From the NCBI GenBank assembly GCA_030682655.1, contig JAUXNU010000137.1:1-49764 (forward strand): a stretch of 49,764 bases of DNA, in the 5' to 3' direction. The notes beneath the pieces were generated by a model that worked only from the letters and a program-made list of their open reading frames with translations, was not told the origin of the DNA and searched no databases. Within the stretch, counting starts at the first letter, position 1. Every line of letters begins with the position of its first letter. A program made the translations under genes and the position numbers. Positions 1 to 49,764 of the stretch are shown piece after piece. Source of the DNA: Actinomycetota bacterium (lineage in GTDB: Bacteria > Actinomycetota > Coriobacteriia > Anaerosomatales > JAUXNU01).

Positions 1-1
1 C

Positions 2-2050
2 ATCACGACGATCCACACCGCTCCGGCAAGCCAGGAGTGCGTCGACTGCCACGAGACGGCCGACGTCCGCACCATCCACGGCGCGACCCAGGCCGCCTCG
101 TGCGTGGTCTGCCACGACGGGCGCACGCTGCCCGCGACGACCCAGTGCACGAACTGCCACGCCTACTCGCCGGTCGACACGAAGCACTACCCGACCGCAC
201 CGCATCTGGCGGTCACCGCTTCGGGCTGCAGCAACTGTCACAGCCTCGACCTCAAGACAGAGCACTTCAAGTCCTCGGCAGGGCCGGTCTCATGCGTCCA
301 GTGCCACGAGACCTACGTGGACGCCTTCACGGCACCTTGGGACAAGAGCTGTGAGAAGTGCCATCCGACGAAGCACGGACAGCAGCAGAACAAACACCGA
401 TCCACGCGCACCGACTGCGCCGGAAGCGGATGCCACGTCGTCACCGATGTGGCAGCAATACACAGCGCTCTGGCGGATGGCGGGTGCAGCGCGTGCCACA
501 AGAGCGCGACCTCGCCTGCCACGACGACCGACTGCGGAGCTGCCGGATGTCATCCGACCGCCACTCCGGGACACCACGAGTCACACAATGCAGCGACCTA
601 CAACCCGACAGGGTGCAAGGGCTGTCACTTCATGTACCTGGATGATGAGCACATCAAGCTCGGGATGACCTGCGACACGTGCCACAAGTCCACGAACACG
701 CTCGTGAAGAGCGCAATCGCGAACCGCGACCGAAAGTGCCTCACTTGCCATCCGACCTCGCCGCACAACCAGCGCCAGGCCTACGAATTCGCTCCCGGCA
801 ATGCGTCGATGCACAGGGTGAGCGCTGACCTGCCCGGCATGCGGTCGACCTTCTACGTGAATGGCGGGACGTACACCTGGTCGCTCCCGCCTGCGAGTAG
901 TTTCCTCAAGACGGGCTACGCGATCAACTCGATGGTCACGTGCGACTCTTGCCACACATACAGCGGCGCAGACGGACCGCACGGCGCTGCGATGAAGGTG
1001 AACATCGACCCTGCTTATCCCACTGTTTGGACGAGTTCAAAGCTCACGCGCTCAGGCAATGGCATGAACCCGTCGACGATCATCTGTGCCAAGTGCCATA
1101 CGAACCTGGGCAGCTCAAATGGCGTCCACAACGACGGCCATCACGCGGGCGACTACTGCAATTCCTGCCACGTGAGCATCCCGCACGGCTGGGGCCGCCC
1201 ACGGCTTATCGGCTACACGACCGACCCGGCTCCCTACAAGGCCCGGTCCGGCGGACTGATTGCCATGAAGCTCAAGAACTACTCGTACTCGTCGGGTTGG
1301 AACGAGAGTGACTGCTACGCGGGTTGCGACGACCACGAGAAGACGGTCAGTCCCATCTGGCCGAATTCCGGCACCGGGACTCCTCCTCCCACGACGGGCA
1401 CTGTGACCGGGCGCATCACGGATGCAGCCACCGGTGCGAACCTGTCCGGAGCAAGCGTGTCGCTCTCTAGCGGAGCCACGGGCACAAGCGGCAGCGATGG
1501 CATGTACACGCTCACGAACGTCATTGCGGGCACGTACACCATGACCGTCAGCAAGAGCGGCTACGCTACGAAGACGCAGAGCATCACGGTGAACGTCGGC
1601 CAGACGACTACCGCCAACGTTGCTCTGACTACGAGTGCTTCCGGTGGGAATCTTGCCCTCGGCAAGACGTTCACAGCTTCACGCTTCGAGAGCTCGACCT
1701 ACGCCCCGAACAAGGCCGGAGATGGTGACTCGGCAACGTACTGGTGGTCCAGGCGCGACGGCAAGAAGGACGACACCGAATGGCTGCGGGTCGATCTTGG
1801 TTCTAGCCTGAGCGTCTCGAGCGCCGAGATCCAGTGGTTCGGCGACTACTTTGCCAAGGAGTTCCGCGTCCACACCTCGACGGACGGTTCCACTTGGGTG
1901 AAGGTCTACGAGACGAGTTCGGGCTCGAGCGGCACGAAGACCGTCACGTTCAGCTCGCGTATGGCGCGGTATGTGAGAGTTGAGTGCCGTCGGACCGGCA
2001 ACGATCGCGACACCGGATATGGTATCGCGGAGCTGCGGGTCTTCAAGTAG
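2..2050 (+). CDS. Multihaem c-type cytochrome with C-terminal discoidin domain (5-prime partial)
   Basis: The frame is open from the first base, so the start lies upstream of the window. The visible part holds 15 haem-binding motifs. Thirteen are CXXCH (CVDCH, CVVCH, CTNCH, CSNCH and others) and two are CX4CH (CAGSGCH, CGAAGCH). After the haem region, at about 1390-1635, comes a carboxypeptidase-regulatory-like beta-sandwich (GTVTGRITDAATG, then DGMYTLTNVIAGTYT). It is followed by an F5/8 type C (discoidin) domain at about 1645-2047, from NLALGKTF to GIAELRVF. Discoidin domains bind sugars or surfaces, so an extracellular, cell-surface or matrix-attached electron carrier is likely (inference). 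It leads a block of further cytochromes on the same strand. Redox partner and substrate cannot be read from the sequence. Confidence 0.9.
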   Translation: MTTIHTAPASQECVDCHETADVRTIHGATQAASCVVCHDGRTLPATTQCTNCHAYSPVDTKHYPTAPHLAVTASGCSNCHSLDLKTEHFKSSAGPVSCVQCHETYVDAFTAPWDKSCEKCHPTKHGQQQNKHRSTRTDCAGSGCHVVTDVAAIHSALADGGCSACHKSATSPATTTDCGAAGCHPTATPGHHESHNAATYNPTGCKGCHFMYLDDEHIKLGMTCDTCHKSTNTLVKSAIANRDRKCLTCHPTSPHNQRQAYEFAPGNASMHRVSADLPGMRSTFYVNGGTYTWSLPPASSFLKTGYAINSMVTCDSCHTYSGADGPHGAAMKVNIDPAYPTVWTSSKLTRSGNGMNPSTIICAKCHTNLGSSNGVHNDGHHAGDYCNSCHVSIPHGWGRPRLIGYTTDPAPYKARSGGLIAMKLKNYSYSSGWNESDCYAGCDDHEKTVSPIWPNSGTGTPPPTTGTVTGRITDAATGANLSGASVSLSSGATGTSGSDGMYTLTNVIAGTYTMTVSKSGYATKTQSITVNVGQTTTANVALTTSASGGNLALGKTFTASRFESSTYAPNKAGDGDSATYWWSRRDGKKDDTEWLRVDLGSSLSVSSAEIQWFGDYFAKEFRVHTSTDGSTWVKVYETSSGSSGTKTVTFSSRMARYVRVECRRTGNDRDTGYGIAELRVFK

Positions 2051-2094
2051 GGCGATAGGTCAACGGTAGGAGGGCTTCCCTGCCTCTTGCACGA

Positions 2095-2127
2095 ACGTGG
2101 GGTCGGCAGCAGTTGTCGGCCCCACGT
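2095..2127 (+). terminator. Hairpin after the discoidin cytochrome
   Basis: A 13-bp stem with two G-U pairs (arms 2095-2107 and 2115-2127, loop AGCAGTT) lies 45 bp after the stop of the first cytochrome. The following bases are not T-rich, so this would be a weak or non-canonical terminator. Such T-poor stems recur in this window. Confidence 0.5.
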
Positions 2128-2325
2128 GACGTTTGCAGGGTTCTCTCGCCGACTCCGTGGCATCTCGGGCTTCCGTTTCGGCTCGTCCGAAGCCGCTGTT
2201 CTTGTCTTAATGCTGCTTCAACGAGCGGCTGCCGCATGATAGACTGAATGCGGCGTCCTCCGCGTCCGCGAAGCGAGGAATTGAGGCGGACGGCGCTTTG
2301 TGCTGGACCCAGGAGGAGCCCGGTC

Positions 2326-3771
2326 TTGACCGATCCGGAGGTCGTCATCGACGACATCGAAGCAATCATCGGCGATGATGCGCAAGGCGGCCGCAAGCGG
2401 CGCTCCAAGCGAACGCTGCTTCTGTTGCTCCTGCTTCTGCTCTGCGGGATAACGTCGATTCTCGACGTCTGGGTCGCGCGCGAACCCAACCGGGCGCGCT
2501 TCGTTACCCGCAACCTCGAATGCCTCCAGTGCCATACGGAGCTCATCCCTGACTTCTCCAAGTCCGCGGTGCACAACCCGTTCATGCTCAAGCAGTGCAC
2601 GGTTTGTCACACTCCGCACGGCAAGGAGGTCGAGCGTACGACGCTCGCGGGGGCGTCCCGCACGTGGAAGCGCGCCCGCACGCTCATCGAATGGTTGCCG
2701 CTGAAATGGATCATCAGCGCATACGACAGTGTCGCCGGAGTGACGGACACGGATTCGGGCGGCGAGGTCATCGGGAAGCAGACCGAGCAGCTCAAGGACT
2801 CCGAGTCCCATCTCGTCGCACCCGAGACCGAGCTGTGCTGGATCTGCCATGGTGATCTGGGTCCGAAGCTCTCGATGTCCTACCAGCACGCGCCGTTCTC
2901 GGGCGGCTTCTGCACGGACTGCCACGACCCGCATGCCTCGGACTTCCGGGCTTTGCTCAATCAAGATGAGCGCGACTTGTGCGTCACCTGTCACCCGATA
3001 GGCCCCGAGCTCGCTCGCAAGCAGGTGCACCCACCTGTCGAAGGCAGGTTCTGCACGAACTGCCACGATCCCCACGCTTCGGACTGGCGCGGGATTCTCG
3101 TGGCGCGGCAGAGAGAGCTGTGCTTCCGCTGCCACCCGACGGTCGCGCTGCTCAGCCTCAAGGCCGTGCAGCACAACCCGTTCCTCTACGACAACTGCAC
3201 GGGATGCCACGAGCCGCATGGCTCGGACTACATTCCGTTGCTCATCGCGAACCAACCCGGTCTCTGCTACATGTGCCATCCGGGGATACGGAACGACTTC
3301 CTCAAGAAGAGCCATCATCCGGTCGACACACTCAAGCTCAACTGCGCCGACTGCCACAACCCGCACGCGGCTGACTACAAGGCGCTGCTCATCGCCGAGG
3401 ACAACAAGCTGTGCTACGTCTGTCACGCCGTGGCGATCAAGGCGACCTATGAGAAATCCGCGCACGTGGATACACTGTGTATCGAGTGCCATACGCCCCA
3501 CGGCTCGGAGTTCGCTCCCATACTCCAGGAGCCGCATCCGGAACTCTGTTTCAACTGTCATCCGTGGGCTCGCAACAAGAACAACCACCCGTACCGCCCC
3601 GACCTCTACTACGACACCTACGCACGCAAGCGAATGACATGCGTGTCAACGTGCCATGATCCGCACGGAACGCTGTATCCAAAGATGATCCAGCTCCCGT
3701 ACGGCGTGAAAGGGTATGGCCACGACAATCTGTGTCTCGCATGTCACAAGGGAGTCGGGAAGACATTCTGA
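2326..3771 (+). CDS. Membrane-anchored 15-haem cytochrome, doubled-CXXCH type
   Basis: The chosen start is TTG 2326, preceded by AGGAGG at 2311-2316 (9-nt spacer). The in-frame ATG at 2248 would add an arginine-rich leader with no ribosome site. An N-terminal membrane segment (nine leucines, then CGITSILDVWV) at about residues 25-43 anchors the protein. Outside it lie 15 haem motifs: 14 CXXCH and one CX3CH (CVSTCH). They alternate in the paired pattern of the doubled-CXXCH family, with repeated C-x-x-C-H-(D/E/N/T)-P-H-(A/G)-(S/A/K)-(D/E) units such as CTDCHDPHASD and CTNCHDPHASD. This predicts a long wire-like relay outside the membrane. It sits between other cytochromes on the same strand. 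Function beyond electron transfer is inference. Confidence 0.9.
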   Translation: MTDPEVVIDDIEAIIGDDAQGGRKRRSKRTLLLLLLLLLCGITSILDVWVAREPNRARFVTRNLECLQCHTELIPDFSKSAVHNPFMLKQCTVCHTPHGKEVERTTLAGASRTWKRARTLIEWLPLKWIISAYDSVAGVTDTDSGGEVIGKQTEQLKDSESHLVAPETELCWICHGDLGPKLSMSYQHAPFSGGFCTDCHDPHASDFRALLNQDERDLCVTCHPIGPELARKQVHPPVEGRFCTNCHDPHASDWRGILVARQRELCFRCHPTVALLSLKAVQHNPFLYDNCTGCHEPHGSDYIPLLIANQPGLCYMCHPGIRNDFLKKSHHPVDTLKLNCADCHNPHAADYKALLIAEDNKLCYVCHAVAIKATYEKSAHVDTLCIECHTPHGSEFAPILQEPHPELCFNCHPWARNKNNHPYRPDLYYDTYARKRMTCVSTCHDPHGTLYPKMIQLPYGVKGYGHDNLCLACHKGVGKTF

Positions 3772-3820
3772 TCTGCAGCGACCATCTTGCACGTGTACCC
3801 CACGAAGGGTGTGACCCCGC

Positions 3821-4966
3821 GTGACCCGCATCTCGTTCGATGGTTGGAAGGATCCGGCCAGACGTTCCCGCTACGTCATCTGGACAGGCGTCAGCGTGCT
3901 CGTGCTCGCGGCGGTTGTTGTTGTCGCGCTCGGGGTGACCTCGACCTACTGGTTCTGCGCCAACGGTTGCCACAAGGTGCAGGACGACACGATCACCGCA
4001 TACAATCGCTCGTCCCACTCGGAGATATCGTGCATGTCCTGCCACATGCCCGCGAATTCGGGGCCGGTGACGTTCCTGCTCCACAAGGCCACGGCGCTCG
4101 GTGAGCTGTATCTCACGGTGACTGGCGGCTACGAGCTCCCGCTCAACGGGGAGTCGGCCGTGGCGCTCGAGATGCCCTCGGCGCAGTGTACGCAGTGCCA
4201 CAAGGAAGATCGCGTCGCTACGCCCTCGGCCGGGATCATCATCGACCACGCCGTTCACGCCGAGAACGAGGTCACGTGCACCATCTGCCACAACCGCGTC
4301 GCGCATCGCGAGGACTTCGATCTCGAACTCACTGACCCCAAGACGGGCGAGCCCAGCCGCAAGCACGACGACTTCATGGAGATGACAGCCTGCTTCCGCT
4401 GCCACAGCCTCGAGAAGGACGCCCGGGCGCCGGGTGCGTGCTTGGCGTGTCACTCGGCCGACTTCGAACTCAAGCCGGCGAACCACTTCGAGCCTGGCTT
4501 CTACCAGCTTGGCGGCGAATCCGAAGGTCACACGAAGCTTGCGAACGCGGCCCTTGCCGCAACCGGCGAACCCACGGCCACGGCCGAACCAACGGCGGCA
4601 CCCGTTGCGCACGAGGAAGGTGAGCTGCCCACTGTCTCGAGCATCTTCTACTGCGAGACCTGCCACGCCAAGGAGTTCTGTACGAATTGCCATGGGCTCC
4701 CCATGCCACACCCGACGGACTTCAAAGAGGGCCACGGCGGATTGGGCAAGAGCAAGCCCAAAGTCTGTGCGAACTGTCATGCGACCGGCGGAGAGAGCAC
4801 GCAGGGTCTCGAGTTCTGCAATTCCTGCCACCACCCCGAGAAAGACCCGCTCAGGTCGTGGATCAGCCAGCACTTCGTAGTCGTGCGAGAGAAGGGCGCC
4901 CAGTCTTGCTTCGATTGCCACAATCCGACATACTGCGCCGAATGCCACGTCAGGTCCATCCAGTAG
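3821..4966 (+). CDS. NapC/NirT-like membrane-anchored 12-haem cytochrome
   Basis: The start is GTG 3821, with GAAGGG about 10 nt upstream. One membrane segment (about residues 18-42, VSVLVLAAVVVVALGVTS) is followed at once by CANGCH (CX3CH) and CMSCHMP. That spacing is typical of the NapC/NirT/NrfH quinol-oxidising family. Twelve haem motifs are present in total, including CTQCH, CTICH, CFRCH, CLACH, CTNCH and CAECH. A low-complexity TAEPTAAP linker divides the protein near residue 250. The motif CHGLPMPHP recurs in the cytochromes at 8130 and 9074. The likely role is passing electrons from menaquinol to the large relay cytochromes nearby (inference). At 381 residues it is about twice the length of a tetrahaem NapC. 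Confidence 0.88.
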   Translation: MTRISFDGWKDPARRSRYVIWTGVSVLVLAAVVVVALGVTSTYWFCANGCHKVQDDTITAYNRSSHSEISCMSCHMPANSGPVTFLLHKATALGELYLTVTGGYELPLNGESAVALEMPSAQCTQCHKEDRVATPSAGIIIDHAVHAENEVTCTICHNRVAHREDFDLELTDPKTGEPSRKHDDFMEMTACFRCHSLEKDARAPGACLACHSADFELKPANHFEPGFYQLGGESEGHTKLANAALAATGEPTATAEPTAAPVAHEEGELPTVSSIFYCETCHAKEFCTNCHGLPMPHPTDFKEGHGGLGKSKPKVCANCHATGGESTQGLEFCNSCHHPEKDPLRSWISQHFVVVREKGAQSCFDCHNPTYCAECHVRSIQ

Positions 4967-5029
4967 GAGGGTTCGCCGTGATAGCGTCCGGTATCCTCTT
5001 CCGTGTCATGAATACCGAAAGGCCCTGCC

Positions 5030-5683
5030 ATGTCTACTGACCCGCGCGAACGCCAGGTGCGGCGCCTGTTCTTTGCTGCGAGCGTCCTGATCATCATCGT
5101 GCTCGTGACCGTTGCGGCCGGCGCCTGGTACCTGCTTGCCGCGCGGGCTCCACGGACCCAACTCGAATCCGACCTCGTAGCGGCGCGCGCGGCGGTGCAG
5201 TCCAAGCCGCAGGACCCCATCGCGCACGAGGACATGTCGTTCGTCTACGTCCGCATGGGACGGCAGAGCTCGGCCATCGATGAAATGAAGACGGCCGTGA
5301 AACTCGCACCCGACAACCCTCGCATAAGGACGAATCTCGCCTTGCTGTACGGTCGCTACGAAATGCACGAGGAGGCGATTGCTGCCGCCAAGGACGCGAT
5401 CAAGCTCTACGATCGGGCAGCGCCGGCCTACTTCGTCCTGGGGAAGAGCTACGAAGCCCTCGGAAACCTCACCGAGGCGCGCAAGGCACTCGAGCGGGCA
5501 GTCGAACTTGAGTCCGCCGACGCAGATTCCCGTTTCGCTCTCGGCCAGGTGCTTCTCGACCTGGGCAAGACCAAGGAAGCCGCCGAGCAGTTCAAGATCG
5601 TCAAATCGCAGGTGGCGGAGTATCCGGGCATCGATGAAGCGCTCGCCAAAGCCGGCGTCGAAGCTGCGGACACCGCCAAGTGA
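5030..5683 (+). CDS. Membrane-anchored TPR protein
   Basis: The protein has 217 residues. One N-terminal membrane segment (about residues 13-35, LFFAASVLIIIVLVTVAAG) is followed by roughly four tetratricopeptide repeats. These start near AHEDMSFVYVRMG, IRTNLALLYGRYE, AYFVLGKSYEALG and SRFALGQVLLDLG. TPR proteins scaffold protein assemblies and often accompany cytochrome maturation or cytochrome complexes. The gene sits inside the cytochrome block and its stop lies 17 nt before the chosen start of the NHL gene, so the two are probably cotranscribed. A role in holding the cytochrome assembly together is inference. The ribosome site is weak (AAAGG). Confidence 0.85.
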   Translation: MSTDPRERQVRRLFFAASVLIIIVLVTVAAGAWYLLAARAPRTQLESDLVAARAAVQSKPQDPIAHEDMSFVYVRMGRQSSAIDEMKTAVKLAPDNPRIRTNLALLYGRYEMHEEAIAAAKDAIKLYDRAAPAYFVLGKSYEALGNLTEARKALERAVELESADADSRFALGQVLLDLGKTKEAAEQFKIVKSQVAEYPGIDEALAKAGVEAADTAK

Positions 5684-5700
5684 CCATGAAGGAGCACAGC

Positions 5701-6918
5701 GTGTCGGATTTCGACGGAATAGGGACCATCGAACAGGATCGTGCCGCCGACGAGGACAAGCGTCTCAACAGGCAGCGTCGCGCCCTCCTTGCTGTTGTCG
5801 TTCTGCTGCTTCTGATCCTCTGCGGCACGATGTCGGTGTTCTTCTACCTCGCCCGCCCCATCCAGTCCGTCGATCAGCCTCCTGCCGAGGAGGGGTGGAC
5901 CTTCAAGACGTCCATAACGTCGTGGGGAGCAGGACCGTCCGACCAGCTGCTAAAGCCCCAGGGAGCTGCATACGGCCCGAACGACGAACTGGTAGTCAGC
6001 GACTACAACGTGCGTCCGCGTATCCTGGTCTTCAAGAAGGGAGATAACGTTCCGGACCTCGTGTTCGGGGAGTTCGGCAGCGAGCCCGGGCAAATCGGTG
6101 GTTCGTGGTCCCTGGCGGTTGATTCGCAGGGAAACATCTACTCTGCGGACAACCGCAACTCACGTGTGCAGGTGTGGAACGCGCTCGGGGAGCGCTTGAG
6201 GGAGATTCCGGCGCGTCACCCACAGACCGTCCGAGTAGTGGACGACGCCCTGTACGTGGGCGAACAGGGATCGGTGGCAGTCTTCTCACTGGAAGGCGAC
6301 TTGATCGATCGCTTCGGTGAGTTCGGACGCAAGGAAGGCCAGTTCGATCGCATATCCGGTCTCGACGTCGACGCCGATGGAAGTATCTACGTGGCGGACG
6401 GCCCGCTGAACCGTGTGCAGAAGCTCGACAAGGCCGGCAAAGTAGTCTGGGTTGCAGGTACTGTGCCGACGAGTATGAACGAACGCGAGCGCCTGTTCGA
6501 CTTCGCAGCCGATGTGCGGCTTGCGGGAGACGGGAACCTCTATGTTCTCGAGGGCCTTCGCAGCCGCGTGGCCGTCGTCGATCCCAAGACCGGCAAGGTG
6601 CTCAGGACCCTTGGCGAGCGTGGGCAGGAAGACGGGCAACTACTGCAGCCCAAGCAGCTGGCGCTGGACTCCACGGGTCTGACCCTCGCGGTCACGGACA
6701 CGTTCAACGACCGCGTGCAGATCGTATACCTGGGTTCAGAGTCTCTTCTCGACCGCCTTGCCGGGCCGCGCCGCGTGGGCGAGTGGCAATCGTGGTTCAG
6801 CCCGCTCACAGTATGCGGTATCCCGCTGGCCCTGATTCTTCTCATAATCATCCTCGTATTTGTGTCAGATCGTGTTGCACGTGCCCGGAGAGACGGGTAC
6901 AATTCTGATGGAAGCTAA
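5701..6918 (+). CDS. Membrane-anchored NHL-repeat beta-propeller protein
   Basis: GTG 5701 is preferred because AAGGAG lies at 5689-5694. In-frame GTG 5680 and ATG 5686 would overlap the previous stop region and lack a ribosome site. The 405-residue product has a membrane segment near residues 28-48 and another at the C-terminus (GIPLALILLIIILVFVSD), so the propeller is tethered at both ends. Between them are NHL-type blades with recurring G-x-I-Y-V-A-D-x-x-N-x-R-V-Q patterns (SIYVADGPLNRVQK, TLAVTDTFNDRVQI). NHL proteins occur in several cytochrome gene clusters and are thought to mediate protein contact. No enzyme residues are evident. It probably acts with the adjacent TPR protein and cytochromes (inference). 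Confidence 0.88.
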   Translation: MSDFDGIGTIEQDRAADEDKRLNRQRRALLAVVVLLLLILCGTMSVFFYLARPIQSVDQPPAEEGWTFKTSITSWGAGPSDQLLKPQGAAYGPNDELVVSDYNVRPRILVFKKGDNVPDLVFGEFGSEPGQIGGSWSLAVDSQGNIYSADNRNSRVQVWNALGERLREIPARHPQTVRVVDDALYVGEQGSVAVFSLEGDLIDRFGEFGRKEGQFDRISGLDVDADGSIYVADGPLNRVQKLDKAGKVVWVAGTVPTSMNERERLFDFAADVRLAGDGNLYVLEGLRSRVAVVDPKTGKVLRTLGERGQEDGQLLQPKQLALDSTGLTLAVTDTFNDRVQIVYLGSESLLDRLAGPRRVGEWQSWFSPLTVCGIPLALILLIIILVFVSDRVARARRDGYNSDGS

Positions 6919-7013
6919 AGGCGCGGGGAAAGCGCCTTCGGCAAGGACTCATTGCTCGGCGCGTGAGCGCCGATAATAGCCATGAGTACATCAACGCGGA
7001 GGAGGTGAACTGC

Positions 7014-7919
7014 ATGAGGAAATTTCTGTTCTTGGCCCTCGTGTTCGTTTTCGTGATGGCGTTTGCCGGCGTGGCTGTTGCCAACCCGGACAGCTGGAAC
7101 CCACCCGGCCCGACCTACCGTGACCCGGTGACCACTGGTGCGTCGCCCGATTCGCCGCACGGCAGCTATGCCACGACGAACGACGAGTGCGAGATTTGTC
7201 ACAGCCCCCACCAGGCCGGTACCGCTGGTAGCACGTACAAGTTGCTGCGCGGCAACAACGCCGCGTCTGCGTGCGACTACTGTCATGCCAACGGTGGCAA
7301 GGCCGGAAGCCCGTACATCGTCTATGTCGTTGGCGGCGTGAACAAGATCAACGACCTGAACGGGCACGAGATCGACGCGTATACCGGTGAGGTGCCGGAC
7401 GATCTCACCAACGGCGTCGACACGGTTATCGGGGCGACACTTGACTGCTTCGACTGCCACTCGGTCCACGGTGCGCGCACGCTCACCACCGCTCAGTTTG
7501 GCGGCAGCGTCAACGGTCTGACCGCACTTCAGCTGCCGACCGCCGCGATCCTCAAAAGGGCTCCGGGTGGGGGAGCTAATGCGACCAACATCAACGAGTG
7601 GTGCGATTCCTGCCACACGGCCAACCTGGTGACGGTCATCGACGGCATATCGCACTACATGGGTACCCGCGGTGCAGTCCTTTCCACTCGCGGCAACATC
7701 GAGCTGGCAACCGTCGACTCGGACGACTGTTCGGATTGCCATAATCCTGATGGCATTACGGGCGACGACTACGTCTGGCCCCACAACAGCCGTGGTGAGG
7801 GTCTGATGGAGTGGACGTCGGCTGGCGGCGGTCCGGGTGTGGGTACTCCTGTTACCCGCGCTACCATGGACGCCAACTGCCTTGCGTGTCACAGCGGCAT
7901 CATCGGCAGCATCTACTAG
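7014..7919 (+). CDS. Secreted hexahaem cytochrome c
   Basis: The start is ATG 7014, with a strong GGAGGAGG at 6998-7005 (8-nt spacer). An upstream in-frame ATG at 6963 lacks this. The first 24 residues form a signal peptide ending AVANPDS, with probable cleavage after AVA. The roughly 280-residue mature protein has six CXXCH motifs: CEICH, CDYCH, CFDCH, CDSCH, CSDCH and CLACH. The haems are widely spaced with long glycine/threonine-rich segments, so it differs from the dense relay cytochromes around it. CEICHSPHQ resembles the opening haem of doubled-CXXCH proteins. A perfect terminator hairpin follows at once, so this gene probably ends an operon. Its strong ribosome site suggests abundant expression. 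Confidence 0.9.
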   Translation: MRKFLFLALVFVFVMAFAGVAVANPDSWNPPGPTYRDPVTTGASPDSPHGSYATTNDECEICHSPHQAGTAGSTYKLLRGNNAASACDYCHANGGKAGSPYIVYVVGGVNKINDLNGHEIDAYTGEVPDDLTNGVDTVIGATLDCFDCHSVHGARTLTTAQFGGSVNGLTALQLPTAAILKRAPGGGANATNINEWCDSCHTANLVTVIDGISHYMGTRGAVLSTRGNIELATVDSDDCSDCHNPDGITGDDYVWPHNSRGEGLMEWTSAGGGPGVGTPVTRATMDANCLACHSGIIGSIY

Positions 7920-7943
7920 GTCTTGCTCTGATATGTCGCATCT

Positions 7944-7972
7944 GTGGGGCCCCTCCTTGCGAGGGGCCCCAC
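7944..7972 (+). terminator. 12-bp perfect hairpin terminator
   Basis: A perfect 12-bp stem (7944-7955 with 7961-7972, loop CTTGC) starts 25 bp after the hexahaem cytochrome stop. The stem is very GC-rich and the following bases are only moderately T-rich. Confidence 0.7.
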
Positions 7973-8129
7973 TCCTTGTGGCCTGTTGCGCACTCCGTTC
8001 GTGCCGAATCTCCGGCCGCTCGGGAGTGATAGAATCGCTCGACGCGTCAATCCGTTCGCCAATCCTCACGGGACGGTCGTGGTGGAGGACCGCCAACACG
8101 AAGAGCTCCCGGACGGGGAGCCCAACAGC

Positions 8130-9077
8130 ATGAGTCTGTCATCGCCCCGGCGCCGCCGGTTGACGGTGGCTGCATACGCGCTTGTCGGCGTCCTGGCCCT
8201 TGTGCTCGTCGTCCTCGTTTCCGTCGGTATCGGCGGGGCAACCGGTGCCGGGTGCTCGTGGTGCCACCGCGAGCCCGCCCAGGTCACCGAGGAATCCTCC
8301 AGCGCGCATGCGGCCGTTGCCTGCGCGCGCTGCCACTCGTACGGCGCAACGGGCCGGGTCAGCCTGGGCGTGCACGGGATCAGCGCATCGGTGCCAGGTG
8401 TTGGCTCCTCGGCGGTTGGTCCGGTACGGCAGGGGGCCTGCCTGGACTGTCACAAGGACGTGCTCACACGTGTGTCCGAGGGAAATGGTCTGAGGATGGA
8501 CCACCGGACGTGCGTTGGGCCGCACGAATCGTGCGCCGGCTGTCACGGAGGGTCGCTACACGAAGCACTCGGCGGTCCGCCGCGCGTCGTGACCATGGAC
8601 GAGTGCCTGGTCTGCCACGTCTCGATCAACCGAACCGAAGGCTGCTCGCTGTGTCACGTCGGCCGCCGCGAGGACGCCGGGCTACCTACCCCGTGGAAGG
8701 TCACCCACGGCATGGAATGGGAGAAGACCCATGGTGCGGGGGATCTCAGCACGTGCCGCTATTGCCACTTCGAAAGCGATTCGTGCACGGGGTGTCACGT
8801 GGACATGCCACATCCCGATCGCTGGCCATCGCTCCACGGAAAGGGCGTGGACAAGGCCCGCGCCACGTGCACGCCGTGCCACCAGAACGCATTCTGCGAC
8901 AGCTGCCATGGGATGGACATGCCGCACCCGGCTGACTGGCTCCCGACCCACCCCAAGCACACCGACGGATACGAAGATCCGTTGTGTACCCGCTGCCACT
9001 TACGGGAGGACTGCACGGCCTGCCACGTGGCGCACACGCATCCGGGCAACATTCGGGGCAAGGAGGGTGCGCGGTGA
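8130..9077 (+). CDS. Membrane-anchored 12-haem cytochrome (CHGxxMPHP family)
   Basis: The chosen start is ATG 8130, with GGGGAG at 8115-8120. Longer in-frame options run back into the terminator region. The product has 315 residues. One membrane segment (about residues 10-34) leads directly into CSWCHREPA, a NapC-like arrangement. Twelve CXXCH motifs follow, including CARCH, CLDCH, CAGCH, CSLCH, CTGCH, CDSCH and CTACH. The motif CHGMDMPHP is shared with the proteins at 3821 and 9074, marking a paralogous set. The stop overlaps the start of the next cytochrome (GTGA), so the two are translationally coupled and probably work together. A quinol-to-periplasm or quinol-to-surface step is inferred from the architecture. 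Confidence 0.88.
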   Translation: MSLSSPRRRRLTVAAYALVGVLALVLVVLVSVGIGGATGAGCSWCHREPAQVTEESSSAHAAVACARCHSYGATGRVSLGVHGISASVPGVGSSAVGPVRQGACLDCHKDVLTRVSEGNGLRMDHRTCVGPHESCAGCHGGSLHEALGGPPRVVTMDECLVCHVSINRTEGCSLCHVGRREDAGLPTPWKVTHGMEWEKTHGAGDLSTCRYCHFESDSCTGCHVDMPHPDRWPSLHGKGVDKARATCTPCHQNAFCDSCHGMDMPHPADWLPTHPKHTDGYEDPLCTRCHLREDCTACHVAHTHPGNIRGKEGAR

Positions 9078-10183
9078 ACCTCCAGGGCTTCGGGCTTAAC
9101 GACCTTCTGAACACCGTCGTCAACGTGGTGCGAGATCCGACGGCCAACCTCACTGCCGCCGTGCTCCTGCTCGCTGCGCTGACCATCGTACTGCTGATTC
9201 TCGTGCTTCTTGCGCTCGCTGTGATCATGCGTCCGGCCAGGACCGAGCACGCTCCACTGATTCCTGCTGAGAGAAGCCCGGAGGACTTGCGAGGACTCCG
9301 TCACCGGCGCGATATCGTGGCCCTCGGCATCCTTGCTTCCGTGGCGGTCGGCCTCGGGATCGGGTACGTGCAGATCGTGCGCACGGGCGCGTGCTTGAGT
9401 TGCCACGCCTCGAGCGCGGACGTATCGACCTCGTGGAGCGAAGGCGCGCATGCAGGCGCGGAGTGTTGGGACTGCCATGGCGGGGGAACTATCGCCAACG
9501 GTCTAGTGGCGCGAATGGAGTATGTGCGCTGGGTACGCTCTCCAGTCGACCCGGCCAAGTCGACTCGCCGTGCGTCGGTGGTGGGCGCGGCGTGTTTGAG
9601 ATGTCACGAGGATGTCCTTGGCGAGCTTGTCGAGACTACGGACCTCAAGATGAGCCACGCCGAGCCGTACGACGCCGGCTACGAGTGCACCGACTGCCAC
9701 AATCAGGCCGGGCACGCCGTGCGCTTTCCTCGCAAGGGCTCGCGGATGGCCCTGTGCCTGGACTGCCACGACGGGAAGAAGGCGGACGCGACGTGCACCG
9801 TCTGTCACGTCACGGATGTCTCGCGAATCTCCGGAACGCCCCCGGAGCGTTTTCCGAAGGTCGAACTCGGCCCACCGACGGACTGTCGGGGGTGCCACTC
9901 CATCAAGACGTGCAACGACTGCCACGGTCTCGAGATGCCTCACCCGCGGCAGTTCGCTACGACGGGCGCCCACGCCAAGCAGGCGGGCTTCGAGAAGCAG
10001 CGCCTATGCACGAAGTGCCACGACATCAAGGGGTTCTGCAACAGGTGCCATCAGTTCGGCGAGGCGCACGGTGGAGCGTCCTGGCGCGCGGAGCATGGAT
10101 CGCAGGCGAACGCGGTAGGGCGGGCATCGTGCATTGCGTGTCACCACAGATCGAAGGACTTCTGCGCGCTCTGCCACAAGTAG
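9074..10183 (+). CDS. Two-span membrane-anchored 12-haem cytochrome (CHGxxMPHP family)
   Basis: The start GTG 9074 overlaps the previous stop, with AGGAGG at 9061-9066. The 369-residue protein has two hydrophobic segments before the haems, at about residues 28-52 and 78-100. The second is followed by CLSCHASS. Twelve CXXCH motifs are present: CLSCH, CWDCH, CLRCH, CTDCH, CLDCH, CTVCH, CRGCH, CNDCH, CTKCH, CNRCH, CIACH and CALCH. CHGLEMPHP marks it as a paralogue of its neighbour. The extra membrane span sets it apart from the other two members and might form part of a quinol site (inference). It closes the cytochrome block. Confidence 0.88.
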   Translation: MNLQGFGLNDLLNTVVNVVRDPTANLTAAVLLLAALTIVLLILVLLALAVIMRPARTEHAPLIPAERSPEDLRGLRHRRDIVALGILASVAVGLGIGYVQIVRTGACLSCHASSADVSTSWSEGAHAGAECWDCHGGGTIANGLVARMEYVRWVRSPVDPAKSTRRASVVGAACLRCHEDVLGELVETTDLKMSHAEPYDAGYECTDCHNQAGHAVRFPRKGSRMALCLDCHDGKKADATCTVCHVTDVSRISGTPPERFPKVELGPPTDCRGCHSIKTCNDCHGLEMPHPRQFATTGAHAKQAGFEKQRLCTKCHDIKGFCNRCHQFGEAHGGASWRAEHGSQANAVGRASCIACHHRSKDFCALCHK

Positions 10184-10342
10184 GTCGTGGCGCCCTGGCC
10201 GTTCAGCCTGCGTCAGGATGAGGCGCATCACGGTAAGGCTTCAGGCGTGCGTGGTACACTGACCTCCATTCAGCCGTGGACCCGCGGTTCTGCCTGCGCC
10301 GCATCCCATGGGACCCCACGTCGACAGAGAGTGCCTGGGTCT

Positions 10343-12127
10343 ATGTCGCGCGTCGATCTTGTCCTGCTACACGCTCCTAGCGTCTATGATTTCCGCGAGA
10401 CTTCGATCATGTTCGGACCCGTTTCGGACATGGTGCCGTCGACACCGATCTTCGAGATGTATCCGCTCGGCTTCACGACGATCGCCGAATACATGGAACG
10501 GCACGGTTTGCGCGTCCGCATCGTGAATCTCGCCGTGTTGATGCTCAACCGGCCCGATTATGACGTCGAAGCGGCTATTCGCGACATGAACCCGGTGGCG
10601 TTCGGGATCGACCTGCATTGGCTGCCGCACGCTCACGGGTCGATCGAGGTCGCCAAGATCGTCAAGAAGCTCCATCCGGACACCCCGGTGATCTTTGGCG
10701 GGCTTTCGGCATCGCATTTTCATGAGGAACTCGCGTCCTACGACTGCGTCGACTATGTCGTACGAGGTGACTCGACCGAGTACCCGATGGCCCGGCTCAT
10801 GTTCGCGCTGAAGGGGAAGGGGCGCGTCGACGACATCCCCAACCTGACCTACACCACGCGCGACGGTTCAGTGGTCTCGACGCCGTTCAGCTGGGTGCCG
10901 GACGACATGAACGACATCTCGCTCGACTACTCTTTCAACATGAAGGCCGTCATCCGCTATCACGACATGATGGGCTTCGTTCCGTTTCGCGATTGGCTGC
11001 AGTACCCCGTCTGCGCGTCCCTGACCTGCCGCGGCTGCACGCACAACTGCGTGACCTGCGGCGGAAGCGCGTATGCGTTTCGCAACCACTTCGGTCGCGA
11101 GAAGGTGGCCTTCCGCGACCCGGAGTTGCTGGTGCGCGACATAGAGCACATCCAGCGCTACATCCCGGGTCCGATCTTCGTGCTCAACGACTTCCTTCAG
11201 GCGGGCCGGGACTACACGGCCGCGTTCATTCGCGGACTGTCCAAGATCAAGCTGCGTAACCCTATCGGGTTCGAGTTCTTCAAGCCCCCGCACGAGGAGT
11301 TCTACGAGTTCCTGAACGAGCACTTGCGCGACTACTCGGTCGAGATATCGGTCGAAAGCCACGACGACGCCGTGCGCGCTGCCTTTGGCAAGCATCACTA
11401 CACGACTGCCCAGGTCGACGAGACCGTCGCCGCGGCGCTGCGCAACGGGTGCAGCCGGTTCGACCTGTACTTCATGACGGGCATCCCGACTCAGACCCCC
11501 GAGTCGGTTCTCGAGACGCCCGACTACATCGAGTCGCTCTATTCAAAGGTCGGCAACGATCCGCGGCTGCTGTGCTTCTCCTCGCCTATGGCTCCGTTTC
11601 TCGATCCGGGCTCGATGGTCTACGACAACCCCGAGAAGTACGGCTACCGGCTACTCGCCGACACTCTCGAGGAGCACCGTCAGCTGCTCGTGCAGCCGTC
11701 ATGGCGCTACATCATGAACTACGAGAGTGAGACGCTCTCAAGGGCCGAGATGGTGGAGACGACCTACGAGGTCGGCATGCGCCTGAACCGCCTCAAAGGC
11801 AAGCTTGGCATCATAGAGCCGCAGGTTGCAGCCCGGACCGAGGAGCGAATATCGCAGGCGCGCGCCGCCATGGCCCGGATCGATGCCATCTTGGCCGAGG
11901 AATCGCCGGCACGAGACCGCAAGCTGGCTGCTCTGAAGACCGAGATAGACCGCCTCTCGGAATCCACGGTGTGCGAGAAGTCCGAGCTCAACTGGCCCGC
12001 GCACGTGAGCCCCTGGAATGTCTGGAACGTCGTTCTGTTGTGGCTGCATGAGGAACTCGCTAACCTGTTGAGACTGCGGCGGCCCGTGGCGGTCCTGCAG
12101 CCGACTGGCGAGACCTCGGAGGCCTGA
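10343..12127 (+). CDS. B12-binding domain / radical SAM protein
   Basis: The protein has 594 residues from ATG 10343. The upstream in-frame extension is arginine/proline-rich and looks non-coding. The N-terminal third resembles a cobalamin-binding Rossmann domain (VIFGGLSASHF near residue 115). A radical SAM cluster motif follows (CTHNCVTC, the CxxxCxxC form) near residue 235. The C-terminal part contains a coiled helical stretch. The architecture fits the B12-binding/radical SAM group annotated in many anaerobes, possibly the TIGR04190 type; family assignment is from memory and the substrate is unknown. Its stop overlaps the ubiE/menG start by one base, so a link to quinone or membrane metabolism is possible but unproven. 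Confidence 0.85.
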   Translation: MSRVDLVLLHAPSVYDFRETSIMFGPVSDMVPSTPIFEMYPLGFTTIAEYMERHGLRVRIVNLAVLMLNRPDYDVEAAIRDMNPVAFGIDLHWLPHAHGSIEVAKIVKKLHPDTPVIFGGLSASHFHEELASYDCVDYVVRGDSTEYPMARLMFALKGKGRVDDIPNLTYTTRDGSVVSTPFSWVPDDMNDISLDYSFNMKAVIRYHDMMGFVPFRDWLQYPVCASLTCRGCTHNCVTCGGSAYAFRNHFGREKVAFRDPELLVRDIEHIQRYIPGPIFVLNDFLQAGRDYTAAFIRGLSKIKLRNPIGFEFFKPPHEEFYEFLNEHLRDYSVEISVESHDDAVRAAFGKHHYTTAQVDETVAAALRNGCSRFDLYFMTGIPTQTPESVLETPDYIESLYSKVGNDPRLLCFSSPMAPFLDPGSMVYDNPEKYGYRLLADTLEEHRQLLVQPSWRYIMNYESETLSRAEMVETTYEVGMRLNRLKGKLGIIEPQVAARTEERISQARAAMARIDAILAEESPARDRKLAALKTEIDRLSESTVCEKSELNWPAHVSPWNVWNVVLLWLHEELANLLRLRRPVAVLQPTGETSEA

Positions 12128-12864
12128 TGACCGAGTCCGGCGAGGAGCCGAAAACTCCGGCTCCCGGCGAAGCGACAACCGAGCGCGTGCATGGGATCTT
12201 CTCCGGCATCGCCGACAGCTACGACCTCTTCAACCGGCTCTCCAGCCTGGGCGTGGACCGGTCGTGGCGGAAGACGGCCGTCGAGGCCGCCCACCTCGGT
12301 CATGACTGCCGCGTGCTCGACATATGCGCGGGGACCGGGGACTTGACCTTCGAGCTCGCGGAGCGGGCGGAACCGGCAGAGGTAGTGTGCACGGACTTCG
12401 TTTCCGAGATGCTTGCGGTTGCCGAAGGGAAGGCCAAACGCTACACCGGCCCGACGAAGCTCACGTTCTCGGTTGTTGATGCCCAGGAGCTGCCATTTCC
12501 GGATGAGTCATTCGACGCCGTTACCGTCGCCTTTGGCGTGCGCAACCTTCCCGATCGCGCCGCGAACTTCCGTGAGGTCATGCGCGTACTCAAGCCCGGC
12601 GGGCGATACGTAGTCCTGGAGTTCTCCCGGCCGCCACTTTGGCCTTGGCGACTCCTGTACCATTTCTACCTCCGAACCGTCATCCCGACCCTGGGTGCGG
12701 TGCTCACCAGAGATCGCGGCTCCTTCCAGTACCTGAACGATTCGATTCTGCGTTTCCCGAACCAGGCGTCACTCGCGGCAGAGCTGCGAGCTGCTGGTTT
12801 CTCGGCCATCACATGGAAGAACCTCACCGGGGGCATCGTGGCCGTGCACACTGCTGTGAAGTAG
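12127..12864 (+). CDS. ubiE: Demethylmenaquinone methyltransferase
   Basis: This 245-residue class I SAM methyltransferase performs the final C-methylation of demethylmenaquinone (also called menG). Motif I is VLDICAGTGDL near residue 60. Family signatures are FGVRNLPDRAANFREVMRVL and LKPGGRYVVLEFSRP. The N-terminal RVHGIFSGIADSYDLFNRLS is the conserved UbiE entry motif. It overlaps the preceding gene by one base and is followed by an amidohydrolase that could belong to the futalosine menaquinone route. Menaquinone would supply the electrons used by the upstream cytochromes (inference). Confidence 0.93.
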   Translation: MTESGEEPKTPAPGEATTERVHGIFSGIADSYDLFNRLSSLGVDRSWRKTAVEAAHLGHDCRVLDICAGTGDLTFELAERAEPAEVVCTDFVSEMLAVAEGKAKRYTGPTKLTFSVVDAQELPFPDESFDAVTVAFGVRNLPDRAANFREVMRVLKPGGRYVVLEFSRPPLWPWRLLYHFYLRTVIPTLGAVLTRDRGSFQYLNDSILRFPNQASLAAELRAAGFSAITWKNLTGGIVAVHTAVK

Positions 12865-12933
12865 GGCGCTCGCGGACCTCAATCGTGCAAGCTGCGGTAA
12901 GATAGGCTCTCCACCGTTTCCAGGAGGAACACG

Positions 12934-14283
12934 ATGCTTCTGACCGCACGCTATGTGCTTCCAGTCGCGACACCGCACATCGAGCATGGAGCCGTTCTTG
13001 TTCGCGGTGACGAGATCGTAGAAGTCGGAGAAGCCGACGCCGTTCTTGCATCTCATCCAGAGGAGGAGGTCGTTGACTTCGGTCTCGCCGCGCTGATGCC
13101 GGGCTTCGTCGACCTTCACACCCACCTGGAGTTCTCCGCGATGCGCGGGCTCGTCGATGATCTTCCCTACTCGCAATGGAAGCTCCAGCTCATGAGTCTC
13201 GAACAGCGTCTGGACATGCAGGACTGGGATGACGGCGCGCTGCTCGGGGCACTCGAAACACTCCAGTCCGGCATCACGACCGTCGCTGACGTCAGCGACT
13301 CAGGGGCATCTGCGCGAGCGGTGACTGCCGCGGGCATCCGCTCCTTCGTCTACCGCGAGGTCTCGACAATGGAGAAGGCGCGCGTTCCACAGGTCATGCA
13401 GGAAGCCTCCGAGGACCTGGCCGCCTGGCGCGACCTCGACACCGAAGGGCTTCTGACGGTCGGTCTGGCGCCGCACTCTCCGTACAGCTGTCATCCGGAG
13501 CTGTTCTCGCGCGTGGCGGAGATGGCCACCGCCGAAGACATGCCGATCTCGACTCACCTGGCGGGCTCGAAGGACGAGTACGACTTCGTGAAGTACGGCA
13601 GCTCCAGGTTGGCGGTCGACTTCCGGGCTCTATACGGCGACGACCAGGCCGGATGGCTGCCAACGGGCGTCAGCCCGGTTCGCTACGTGCTCCAGTGGGA
13701 CCTCTTGGATGCTCCCAACGTTCTTGCCGTGCACTGCACCCAGGTCGACGACGCCGACATAGAAGTCCTGGCCGATCGCGATGTCGCGATAGCGCACTGC
13801 CCCCGCTGCAACGCCAAGCTCGGCATGGGGATGGCGCCCCTTGGCAAGTTCCTGCGCAAGGGTATCCGCGTGGGCATCGGCACCGACTCGCCGGCTTCGA
13901 TCAACACGATGGACATGTTCGACGAGATGCGCATCGGACTGCTGTTCCAGAGGGCTGTAGCAGGCCACGAGGAGTTCTTCGTCGCGCACCAATTCGTCAA
14001 GCTCGCCACTCTTGATGCCGCCCGCGCTCTGCGCATCGACGACCGGGTGGGATCCCTGGAACCCGGAAAGCAAGCCGACATCATCGCGGTCGACATGTCA
14101 CACAGCCACCAGATACCTACCCAGCAACCGGACAGCACGCTCGTGCACACGGCGAATCAGGAGAACATCCTGTTCACGATGGTTGCGGGGAGGGTTCGCT
14201 ACAACCGGGGCGTGTGGAGCACGCTCGATCCGGAGCGCCTGGGCGCGCGCGCTGACGAGCTCCGGATCAAGCTCCGCGGGTAG
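12934..14283 (+). CDS. Amidohydrolase, probable aminodeoxyfutalosine deaminase
   Basis: The 449-residue protein starts at ATG 12934, behind AGGAGG at 12921-12926. It is a TRZ/ATZ-type amidohydrolase of the TIM-barrel superfamily. Metal ligands are visible: HTH in DLHTHLEFSAMRG, His in STHLAGS, His in AVHCTQ and Asp in GTDSPAS. The closing ADIIAVDM strand is typical. Family members deaminate adenine-type nucleosides such as S-adenosylhomocysteine, methylthioadenosine or 6-aminodeoxyfutalosine. Position next to ubiE favours aminodeoxyfutalosine deamination in menaquinone synthesis, but this is inference. MtaD-type activity is the main alternative. The next gene starts directly at its stop. Confidence 0.85.
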   Translation: MLLTARYVLPVATPHIEHGAVLVRGDEIVEVGEADAVLASHPEEEVVDFGLAALMPGFVDLHTHLEFSAMRGLVDDLPYSQWKLQLMSLEQRLDMQDWDDGALLGALETLQSGITTVADVSDSGASARAVTAAGIRSFVYREVSTMEKARVPQVMQEASEDLAAWRDLDTEGLLTVGLAPHSPYSCHPELFSRVAEMATAEDMPISTHLAGSKDEYDFVKYGSSRLAVDFRALYGDDQAGWLPTGVSPVRYVLQWDLLDAPNVLAVHCTQVDDADIEVLADRDVAIAHCPRCNAKLGMGMAPLGKFLRKGIRVGIGTDSPASINTMDMFDEMRIGLLFQRAVAGHEEFFVAHQFVKLATLDAARALRIDDRVGSLEPGKQADIIAVDMSHSHQIPTQQPDSTLVHTANQENILFTMVAGRVRYNRGVWSTLDPERLGARADELRIKLRG

Positions 14284-30651: not shown

Positions 30652-33600
30652 ATGAGGATTCGAAACGGACTCCGCAGGCGTGCCGCCCTAACCTCCGTGG
30701 TGATGTTCTGCGTCGCACCGTTGCTGCTCTCCGGCGTAGCCAGCTCGGCTGCGCTCGACCCGGCCTCCTCGACCCTGCTGGGAACCACGACGCGCGTCTC
30801 TGTGGCCTCGGGTGGTGAACCGGCAAACAACGTGGCGATGCTCTGCTCCATCTCTCACAACGGACGATACGTAGCATTTGCTTCGAATGCTTCCAATCTA
30901 GTCCCCGGCGACACGAACGGGACGTGGGACATCTTCGTCCGCGATTCCCTGATGGACGTCACCAACCGCGTCTCCGTGGCCACGGGCGGTGCTCAGGCAG
31001 ACTACATGAGCTGGGACAACGCCATCTCCGCCGACGGCCGCCATGTTGCGTTCACCTCACATGCGAGCAACCTTGTCCCCGGGGACACCAACGATGTCCT
31101 AGATGTGTTCATGCGTGATATGCGATCCGGTGAGACCACCCGCGTCTCGACAGCCTCCGACGGCACCCAAGGGAACTATGCTTCAGGAAGCGCCGGGGGG
31201 TTCAACGGTGAGGTCGCGATCAGCGCCGACGGCCGCTATGTCGCGTTCTCCTCTCAGGCCTCCAACCTCGTTTCGGACGACACCAACAGTGCCGAAGACG
31301 TCTTCGTGCGAGACACGCTTGCGGGCCAGACCCGCCGCGTCTCAGTGGCGTCGGATGGAGCTGAAGGAAACGCTCAGTCGGGCAACCGCGTCGGCCTCGC
31401 CATCTCCGCCGATGGCCGCTACGTCGCCTTCGCGAGCGGCGCCACCAACCTCGTCCCGGGCGGCACGACGAGGTACAGTGTCTTCGTCCATGACACCGTG
31501 GGCGGTGTGACAAGGGTGGTCGGACCGCTGATCGGACCGCCGGACGGTTACGGTTCTGCTACTGCTGGTCTGGCCATCTCCGATGATGGACGCTACGTGG
31601 CATTCGCATCTACTGTTTCCGACCTCGTCGTCGGCGACACGAACAACGCCCAGGATGTCTTCGTCCGCGACATGCAGGCCGGCGCCACCACTTGCGTCTC
31701 GGTGGACTCCGATGGCCATCCTGGAGGCGCACCCTCCGGCTACTACACCGGCATCGGCATCTCCGCCGATGGCCGCTACGCTACCTTCGCGAGCTACGCA
31801 TCGAATCTCGTACCCGACGATACAAACCACGAGATGGACATCTTCGTCCGCGATACGGGGACCGCTACGACCACTCGTGTGTCGGTAGCATCCGACGGTA
31901 CACAGGCCAACTACTGGTCTGGTGGGGGAGACGCTGTGTACTGGATCACGGGTGGCCCTGATATTTCGGCCGACGGCCGCTCTGTGGCGTTTCTGAGCAG
32001 AGCCTCCAATCTCATCCCCGGCGGCACGAGCGGCATCCAGGCCATCTTCGTCAACGAGGGCGTACGAGACGGTGACTTCTTGCTTTCAGAGGAGTCGTCG
32101 ACCACGACGAGCACCGTCGCCACGCTCCGTTCAAGGACGGCGACAGCGGATGCTCTGGCCGCCAGCGGCGACCTCACCGGCACCGTCGAATTCGAGGGCC
32201 TGGAGCTCGTCACCGTCGAGACCGGTGCTTTCGCAGACAAGGGATTCGTGAGCGCCCGATGGCGCGCCACTCTAGAGGGCGTTGAGTACACGGGGGAGTG
32301 GTCGGCACTCGTTTCGTATGAGGAGGGCGCGAGGAAGTACCGCTTGCGAGGGATGTTCGACGGCGATCTGCGGGGCACGGTTGACGGGTATCTTGCAGAG
32401 ACGACGTCAACCACCGGCGTATTCGACCGATACACAGCGACGTGGCGGCTCACGAGCGGCGGCGCCCTCCTCGTCTCGGCAGCCATCGGCGTCGAGGGCA
32501 GCTTGTCGTATGACGGACCTGCGACTGACTATCCATCGACCGAACTCGACATTGAGCAGATCGCCATGCGCGGCTCGGTCTACGGATCCAACGGCGGGCC
32601 GCTCGGCGCCACGCTCACAACTGCCCGAATCACGGACCCGGCCAGTCCGTTCACCGGCAAAGGCTTCACCATCATGTCGTACGTCTGGGGCGGAGGTTCC
32701 GGCCAAGGGTGGGCAACCGTCCGTCCAGATTCCCTATATGCTTCGACCGAGGCAAGGGGGATGCTCAGCGGACCGCTTGCGGGAAGCATCGAGGGACGCT
32801 TTGACGAAGGTACATTCCGGGGGACGACTCAGCGAATCGATGCGGGCCGTCCGCCTCAGCCGGAGCTTAGGGCGAGGATTATTGGGCCGGAGCGTGTCAG
32901 CCCCGGCCAGACGGTAGACTACGTCGTGGAGCTGCGCAACGACGGCTTGCTCCCGGCGAAGGACGTGAGCGTCGTCCTTCTGCCCTCCGGCTTGGGCGAT
33001 CATGTCTCGTCGACTGACGGCGGCGTCTACGATGGCGTGCTGCACTCGGTGCGATGGGATCTCATCGAGGTTCTGCCCCGCTCGACCGTTCGTTTCTACT
33101 ACCGCACGACGATCATCTGGGGTTTGCCGAACGACGCCCCACTCGGATTCAGCTCCGCGGCACTTACGCACGACGGGGCAGATGCGCTGCTCGCCCACCA
33201 CACAGCGCCTCTGAGCCGCGAGCAGATGAGCGCCGGAGAGCTGCTCTGGGGGGTTGCAGGGAATGTCGTCGGCGTTCCGTTTGTCGCTGTCAGCGAGTTG
33301 TTCGGGGTCAGCCAGCTGATGCCCGACGCCGTCTTCTACTACATCGCGAAGCGGCTCAACATGGCCATCTTGGAGGCCGACGAGACCAATCTCGACTCCC
33401 TCATCAGATATCGGGATGCAGTGCTGACGCTCTTGAATAGCTGCAGATACGATGCTAGCTACATTGCCGATCACTACCCCGCTGGCTCCACTCTCAGGAG
33501 CATCATCATTCAACTGAGGCAGGATAGCGGAGTCACGTCACTGAAGGCCGACACGTTCTCCCACGCCAATGCCGCCCGTGACCCCAACGCGATGTCGGTC

Positions 33601-49669: not shown

Positions 49670-49747
49670 TGACATTTCGCGTTTCCTGCTAGGCTGCAAG
49701 CCTTTGACCTGCGGTTTCAGTGTCAGACATGGCCCAAAGACCGGATT

Positions 49748-49763: not shown

Positions 49764-49764
49764 G

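Follow-up and report, generated by a model that had tools for sequence, protein, structure and literature searches.

Extracellular electron transfer without a porin is already known from Gram-positive bacteria of the Thermincola and Parvivirga kind. The Thermincola chain of ImdcA, PdcA, CwcA and OcwA includes an anchored decahaem quinol oxidase and the hexahaem CwcA, for which an OmcS-based model proposes a stack crossing the peptidoglycan or wall (PMC7911101). For the obligate Fe(III) reducer Parvivirga hydrogeniphila, Khomyakova et al. described clusters (MCL4079323-32) of MtrA-, OmcH- and quinol-oxidase-like multihaem cytochromes together with cytochrome c biogenesis genes and a Rex-type regulator, and appendages of this organism were seen solely with ferrihydrite (PMC9686372). 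In Geobacter, OmcS and OmcE form nanowires (PMC13194489, PMC9473688), and the osc (omcS companion) operon is reported to serve OmcS folding, secretion and morphology (PMC13194489). Here we describe a multihaem cytochrome locus from an actinobacterial genome of the same order as Parvivirga. The window that was analysed is one entire contig of 49,764 nucleotides (JAUXNU010000137.1, hereafter C137), from a genome of 221 contigs that is 97.4% complete. Six cytochrome genes lie on the forward strand at its left end (a giant cytochrome followed by B to F), and the locus appears to continue upstream onto a second contig, C123.

Judged by its published description, the Parvivirga system shares with our locus the Rex-type regulator, the cytochrome c biogenesis genes, and the MtrA-/OmcH-like and quinol-oxidising multihaem cytochromes. 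That paper makes no mention of nanowires, and the present locus adds 43-haem and 14-haem cytochromes and an order-wide module in which TPR and NHL genes precede an OmcS-type cytochrome gene. Thermincola, likened to our genome by description, has a similarly porin-free Gram-positive chain but belongs to another phylum; our locus has two OmcS-type proteins with TPR and NHL partners, an anchored MtrA/DmsE-like rod and giant cytochromes, and none of its genes was identified as OcwA. What appears to be new, as read from sequence, is that an actinobacterial order has OmcS-type subunits partnered by a conserved TPR-NHL pair; the 43-haem protein and the anchored MtrA-like rod add to this.

OmcS-type cytochromes and the TPR-NHL gene pair

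We compared cytochrome D of the window and a 7-haem protein encoded on C123 with proteins of solved structure. Searches of the PDB with single sequences were uninformative. In a profile built jointly from D, the 7-haem protein and 14 homologues, OmcE (8e-8) and OmcS (1.8e-7) were the top two of 177,635 PDB sequences, with the haem motifs paired in order in the OmcS alignment. When D was profiled with two relatives from the order and the NHL-linked hexahaem cytochromes of Bacillota and Chloroflexota, OmcS was matched over nearly its full length at 2.1e-21, the next match being MtrA at 2.7e-9. Profiles of the sibling cytochromes led elsewhere: B to MtrA, C to NrfH, E to OcwA (6i5b) and NrfH, and F to NrfH and OmhA (6qvm), the names of chains 6i5b, 6qvm and 6r2q_A (MtrA) being taken from PMC12203936. 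In a control that kept every CXXCH in place and reversed the spacers (10 of the 16 sequences used), both OmcS and OmcE were lost. The sibling families and this control together rule out mere CXXCH density as the source of the OmcS match.

Profile comparisons with OmcS-like hexahaem cytochromes gave 2e-16 and, for the 7-haem protein, 2e-18. Comparisons of D with B and with E were weaker (5e-10 and 5e-8) and their alignments spanned part of the chain, a signal that is expected among multihaem proteins. Since OmcS was not the top match of the 7-haem family profiled alone, the label of the 7-haem protein carries a caveat: it depends on the joint profile and the profile comparison. The ligand pattern points the same way. 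D has exactly 12 histidines, six in CXXCH motifs and six others that are conserved in its family, while the 7-haem protein has seven motif histidines and seven others; by count, these numbers suffice for bis-histidine ligation of every haem in both proteins. CXXCHXXH is invariant at the first OmcS-aligned haem. From profile and ligand pattern we assign D and the 7-haem protein to the OmcS (nanowire-subunit) type, a predicted identity that is new here and that the initial annotation of the window had missed for D.

The TPR and NHL genes among the cytochromes, seen in that annotation and recovered with Pfam, had been taken for scaffold. Gene order across the Anaerosomatales relatives suggests a more specific association. 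Matches were found in 35 of 41 genomes of the order, giving 78 NHL genes; a TPR gene lies directly upstream in 69 of these, an OmcS-type cytochrome gene directly downstream in 48, and both in 44, with a TPR-NHL overlap that is typically 4 bp. An NHL class of about 500 residues has no cytochrome downstream, and in four genomes B follows the NHL gene instead. A further 47 loci with weaker matches, nearly all outside the order and collected by cytochrome motifs alone, have NHL directly upstream of the cytochrome in 26 cases and directly downstream in 4; by the same test a TPR gene is also present in three of them, from Anaerolineales, Chloroflexi and Bacillota. On one Firmicutes contig (L086), consecutive genes encode C-like, B-like, TPR, NHL, hexahaem, 14-haem and 40-haem proteins. 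The joined locus itself carries two TPR-NHL-cytochrome modules, with NHL directly upstream of both OmcS-type genes. Since its two NHL proteins are 28% identical, they are old paralogues. The NHL proteins have one or two hydrophobic segments and the TPR proteins have one. The pair is a conserved partner of OmcS-type cytochromes across the order, and to some extent outside it, rather than a generic scaffold.

The osc companions of Geobacter are comparable with the TPR-NHL pair in that a beta-propeller gene stands beside a nanowire cytochrome gene, OscD being beta-propeller-like. The present host, in contrast, is Gram-positive, and a Pfam scan of the locus genes recognised no secretion channel, prolyl isomerase, OscH or OscEFG. 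In Dethiobacter alkaliphilus, the multihaem clusters for extracellular electron transfer likewise contain genes for NHL- and TPR-repeat proteins and for CymA-like quinol oxidases; the repeat proteins are ranked there as auxiliary, and the excerpt consulted describes no fixed TPR-NHL-OmcS-type order (PMC10376724).

Related arrangements were observed elsewhere. A second similar locus of the same genome (L034 1821-10538, contig C32) encodes a 541-residue 7-haem cytochrome, E- and F-like dodecahaem proteins, TPR and NHL proteins and a lipoprotein. A third cluster (L198 153-18665, contig C54) encodes a 20-haem cytochrome, a TPR protein, a 523-residue NHL protein, molybdopterin-enzyme-like and ferredoxin-like proteins (both assigned by eye) and 6- and 13-haem cytochromes; it is reminiscent of the Parvivirga cluster that includes a molybdopterin oxidoreductase. 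Adjoining the cytochrome cluster of one relative (L026 11352-14876) is the gene for a 1174-residue NHL protein with three cell-wall-binding (CWB2) domains, a candidate wall anchor.

Extent of the locus and its other cytochromes

The six cytochrome frames contain 13, 14, 11, 6, 12 and 12 CXXCH motifs, a sum of 68. Adding the two CX4CH motifs of the first cytochrome and the single CXXXCH of both the second and the third gives 15, 15, 12, 6, 12 and 12. The "about 72 haem motifs" of the initial annotation is therefore reproduced, frame by frame, as a total that mixes 68 canonical with four non-canonical motifs. Residue-shuffled versions of the same proteins contained 0.01-0.12 CXXCH per protein, with a maximum of 2 in 500 shuffles, which rules out a chance origin. 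Of the 69 CXXCH that a six-frame translation of the window contains, only one falls outside the cluster.

The locus is larger than had been described. The terminal 97 bases of C123 are identical to bases 1-97 of the window in the same orientation, and across this overlap the first gene continues in frame to about 1,750-1,800 residues with a signal peptide and 43 CXXCH. Before it on C123 lie, in order, genes for Rex, TPR, NHL, the 7-haem cytochrome, a 14-haem cytochrome in which propeller-like and Ig-like (Big_5) domains were recognised, a lipoprotein and finally ResB. Among relatives, a block of Rex, TPR, NHL, 7-haem, lipoprotein, ResB and CcsA genes leads into B in L027 and into B and C in L030. 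The join is thus supported by contig overlap together with gene order in relatives. From the 7-haem gene to F we counted 119 CXXCH, 51 upstream of the window and 68 inside it. Looking upstream for the missing 5' part and comparing gene order in relatives, both proposed in the initial annotation, were productive: C123 completes the first gene and adds partners, and the TPR-NHL-OmcS-type order, the E/F pair and the flanking genes are kept in relatives. That annotation had lacked the upstream half, with the 43-haem protein, the 7- and 14-haem cytochromes, ResB and Rex, and the meaning of the TPR-NHL pair. At the right end of the window, 141 bases (49624-49764) are identical to a stretch of contig C11 on the opposite strand, which suggests that both end overlaps of C137 are assembly-graph overlaps.

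The giant cytochrome ends in CarboxypepD_reg and F5/8 type C domains (Pfam), as expected from the discoidin domain noted earlier. In relatives, giant cytochromes with 33-43 haems lie directly before the TPR-NHL-hexahaem genes. Giant cytochromes also stand beside such genes on Bacillota contigs, with 2411 residues and 67 CXXCH (L113, from 6957) and 1288 residues and 40 CXXCH (L086, from 13452).

The best solved-structure match of cytochrome B is MtrA (6r2q_A, 1.7e-21), a chain labelled cystathionine beta-synthase in the copy of the PDB that was searched and identified as MtrA by PMC12203936. B has doubled-CXXCH repeats and one N-terminal membrane segment, and scores 166.8 bits against the DmsE family TIGR03508, under its cut-off of 192.2. 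We therefore read B as a putative MtrA/DmsE-like rod in which a membrane anchor takes over from the porin. It differs from its counterparts in MtrAB and DmsEF in having 15 rather than 10 haems, an N-terminal anchor and no porin. Consistent with the initial annotation, the Pfam scan of locus genes turned up no porin, and on this ground we reject a porin-cytochrome complex of the MtrAB, DmsEF or Pcc type.

Three NapC-like anchors had been proposed. Cytochrome C bears this out directly, matching NapC/NirT (PF03264) at 3.7e-12 in Pfam and NrfH at 9.4e-5 in the PDB profile search, and is a probable quinol oxidase by sequence. The NapC/NrfH-type likeness of E and F is weak and comes from PDB and NCBIfam profiles, with no Pfam NapC/NirT score; F matches NrfH at 1.1e-9 and also matches stretches of OmhA and NrfA. 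E and F form a conserved gene pair.

The cytochrome genes are followed, here and in several relatives, by genes for a TIGR04190 protein, a UbiE-type methyltransferase and an amidohydrolase (10187-14283). The amidohydrolase is aminofutalosine-deaminase-like, under cut-off. Promoter and terminator scans gave nothing beyond chance. Outside the cytochrome cluster, the window contains an open frame of 1,622 residues (30652-35520).

Genes of the cytochrome cluster and its right flank in the window (the start codons of D, E and F are probably near 7014, 8130 and 9074; the TPR and NHL genes, and E and F, overlap by 4 bp)
Feature	Coordinates	Strand	Basis
Giant multihaem cytochrome, 3' part, 682 residues, 13 CXXCH + 2 CX4CH	1..2050	+	Motif count, contig overlap, Pfam
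Cytochrome B, 14 CXXCH + 1 CXXXCH, MtrA/DmsE-like rod (predicted), N-terminal membrane anchor	2248..3771	+	Motifs, PDB profile search, DmsE profile
Cytochrome C, NapC/NrfH-type anchored dodecahaem, 11 CXXCH + 1 CXXXCH	3821..4966	+	Pfam PF03264, NrfH match
TPR protein, single N-terminal membrane anchor	5030..5683	+	Pfam
NHL beta-propeller-type protein, hydrophobic segments at N- and C-terminus	5680..6918	+	Pfam
Cytochrome D, OmcS-type hexahaem (by profile), signal peptide	7014..7919	+	Profile searches, histidine count
Cytochrome E, dodecahaem, N-terminal membrane anchor, NrfH-like N-terminal part	8130..9077	+	Motifs, PDB profile search
Cytochrome F, dodecahaem, two N-terminal membrane segments, NrfH-like	9074..10183	+	Motifs, PDB profile search
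B12-binding/radical SAM protein, TIGR04190	10187..12127	+	Pfam/NCBIfam, conserved neighbour
UbiE-type methyltransferase	12127..12864	+	Pfam, conserved neighbour

A proposed porin-free conduit and its rivals

We think it fairly likely that the products of the locus form a porin-free conduit with OmcS-type chains for extracellular electron transfer. The membrane-to-surface path raised in the initial annotation is the best-supported reading, given the NrfH-like anchors, the MtrA/DmsE-like rod, the OmcS-type and giant cytochromes, and relatives that reduce Fe(III) or live on biocathodes. The named relatives of the locus are Coriobacteriia (Anaerosomatales/OPB41) and include a contig of biocathode strain EMTCatB1; the cultured ones have a Gram-positive wall (PMC9686372). 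Under this reading, quinol would be oxidised at the membrane by the anchored NrfH/NapC-like C, E and F, and electrons would pass to B, a 15-haem rod tethered by its membrane anchor. From B they would reach D and the 7-haem protein, which may span the wall as end-to-end chains or form surface filaments. The giant secreted cytochromes (43-haem with discoidin, 14-haem with propeller and Ig-like domains) would gather or hand over electrons at the surface. The TPR and NHL proteins may guide folding, export or chain assembly of the OmcS-type protein that follows them, haem attachment would be carried out by ResB with CcsA, which is encoded on contig C21 of the same genome, and Rex may link expression to NADH/NAD+. 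Genes for the futalosine route to quinone are present in the genome (MqnC and an MqnA/D-type gene), so a predicted quinone supply fits the conduit, and the UbiE-type methyltransferase would suit quinone synthesis.

Several observations weigh against this reading. According to PMC9473688, OmcE and OmcS share no sequence similarity; the OmcS-type match would therefore reflect largely haem and ligand spacing. AlphaFold models of D (mean predicted local distance difference test score 40, 16-sequence alignment) and of the 7-haem protein (35, 9 sequences) were useless. Whether the cytochrome filaments of Geobacter have a physiological role is contested (PMC12203936). In cultured Parvivirga and Anaerosoma, respiratory quinones were not detected, and Anaerosoma, a relative that has 18 multihaem genes, is not an Fe(III) reducer (PMC9686372). 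Finally, neither contig stretch (C123 or the window) contained a match to the Rex operator consensus, so that adjacency is the one pointer to Rex control.

The conduit could also operate with D and the 7-haem protein as non-polymeric, single wall-embedded or loosely bound relays, the giant cytochromes spanning the wall. A 43-haem chain might reach across the wall by itself, and the position of its counterparts directly before the TPR-NHL-hexahaem genes in relatives suits such a role, as do the histidines of D, enough to ligate all haems inside one chain, and the failure of AlphaFold to yield a subunit interface for either protein. However, the invariant first-haem CXXCHXXH and the full-length OmcS match fit a polymer-forming relative, and the recurring TPR-NHL partners suggest a dedicated assembly step; we regard non-polymeric relays as possible, if somewhat doubtful. 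Multihaem chains are able to run both ways, and electrons taken up from Fe(II), cathodes or partner cells might instead flow inward to drive CO2 reduction or H2 formation, but the known role of NrfH-type anchors is mostly quinol oxidation, and an inward conduit seems unlikely to us. Strain EMTCatB1 is the dominant member of a biocathode that produces methane, and its multihaem genes are among those it expresses most; the authors propose electron uptake through multihaem cytochromes (PMC7943316). In contrast, cultured Parvivirga takes H2 or formate as its donor and Fe(III) as its acceptor (PMC9686372).

Respiration of an internal acceptor, such as nitrite or a sulfur compound, through a dedicated soluble or membrane terminal reductase had been considered equally open. 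The NrfH resemblance of C, E and F, the stretches of F that match OmhA and NrfA, and the molybdopterin-enzyme-like gene near other cytochromes on C54 are compatible with it. Yet no terminal reductase gene was recognised among the locus genes scanned from Rex through the amidohydrolase gene, which extends the earlier finding that none was identifiable, and the absence of a PF02335 match in the genome, at its stated completeness, leads us to reject an NrfHA nitrite reductase system. Nor does an internal acceptor suit giant cytochromes that bear adhesive domains, and we now consider this explanation improbable.

Implications for the order

The preferred reading, a porin-free conduit with OmcS-type chains, can be extended with much less assurance to a general proposal. 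Tentatively, the whole actinobacterial order may assemble wall-crossing OmcS-type filaments via a dedicated TPR-NHL pair, coupled to an anchored 15-haem MtrA-like rod that replaces the porin, with the TPR-NHL-cytochrome module common to Bacillota and Chloroflexota and the NHL-cytochrome core to further phyla. The locus offers a concrete, testable parts list for the question of how electrons pass a thick Gram-positive wall without a porin. As a genomic signature, the TPR-NHL-OmcS-type gene order may point to further lineages with candidate cytochrome-filament systems, cultured relatives among them. The proposal would, if true, trace the iron respiration of a widespread subsurface order, and its behaviour at electrodes, to defined genes.

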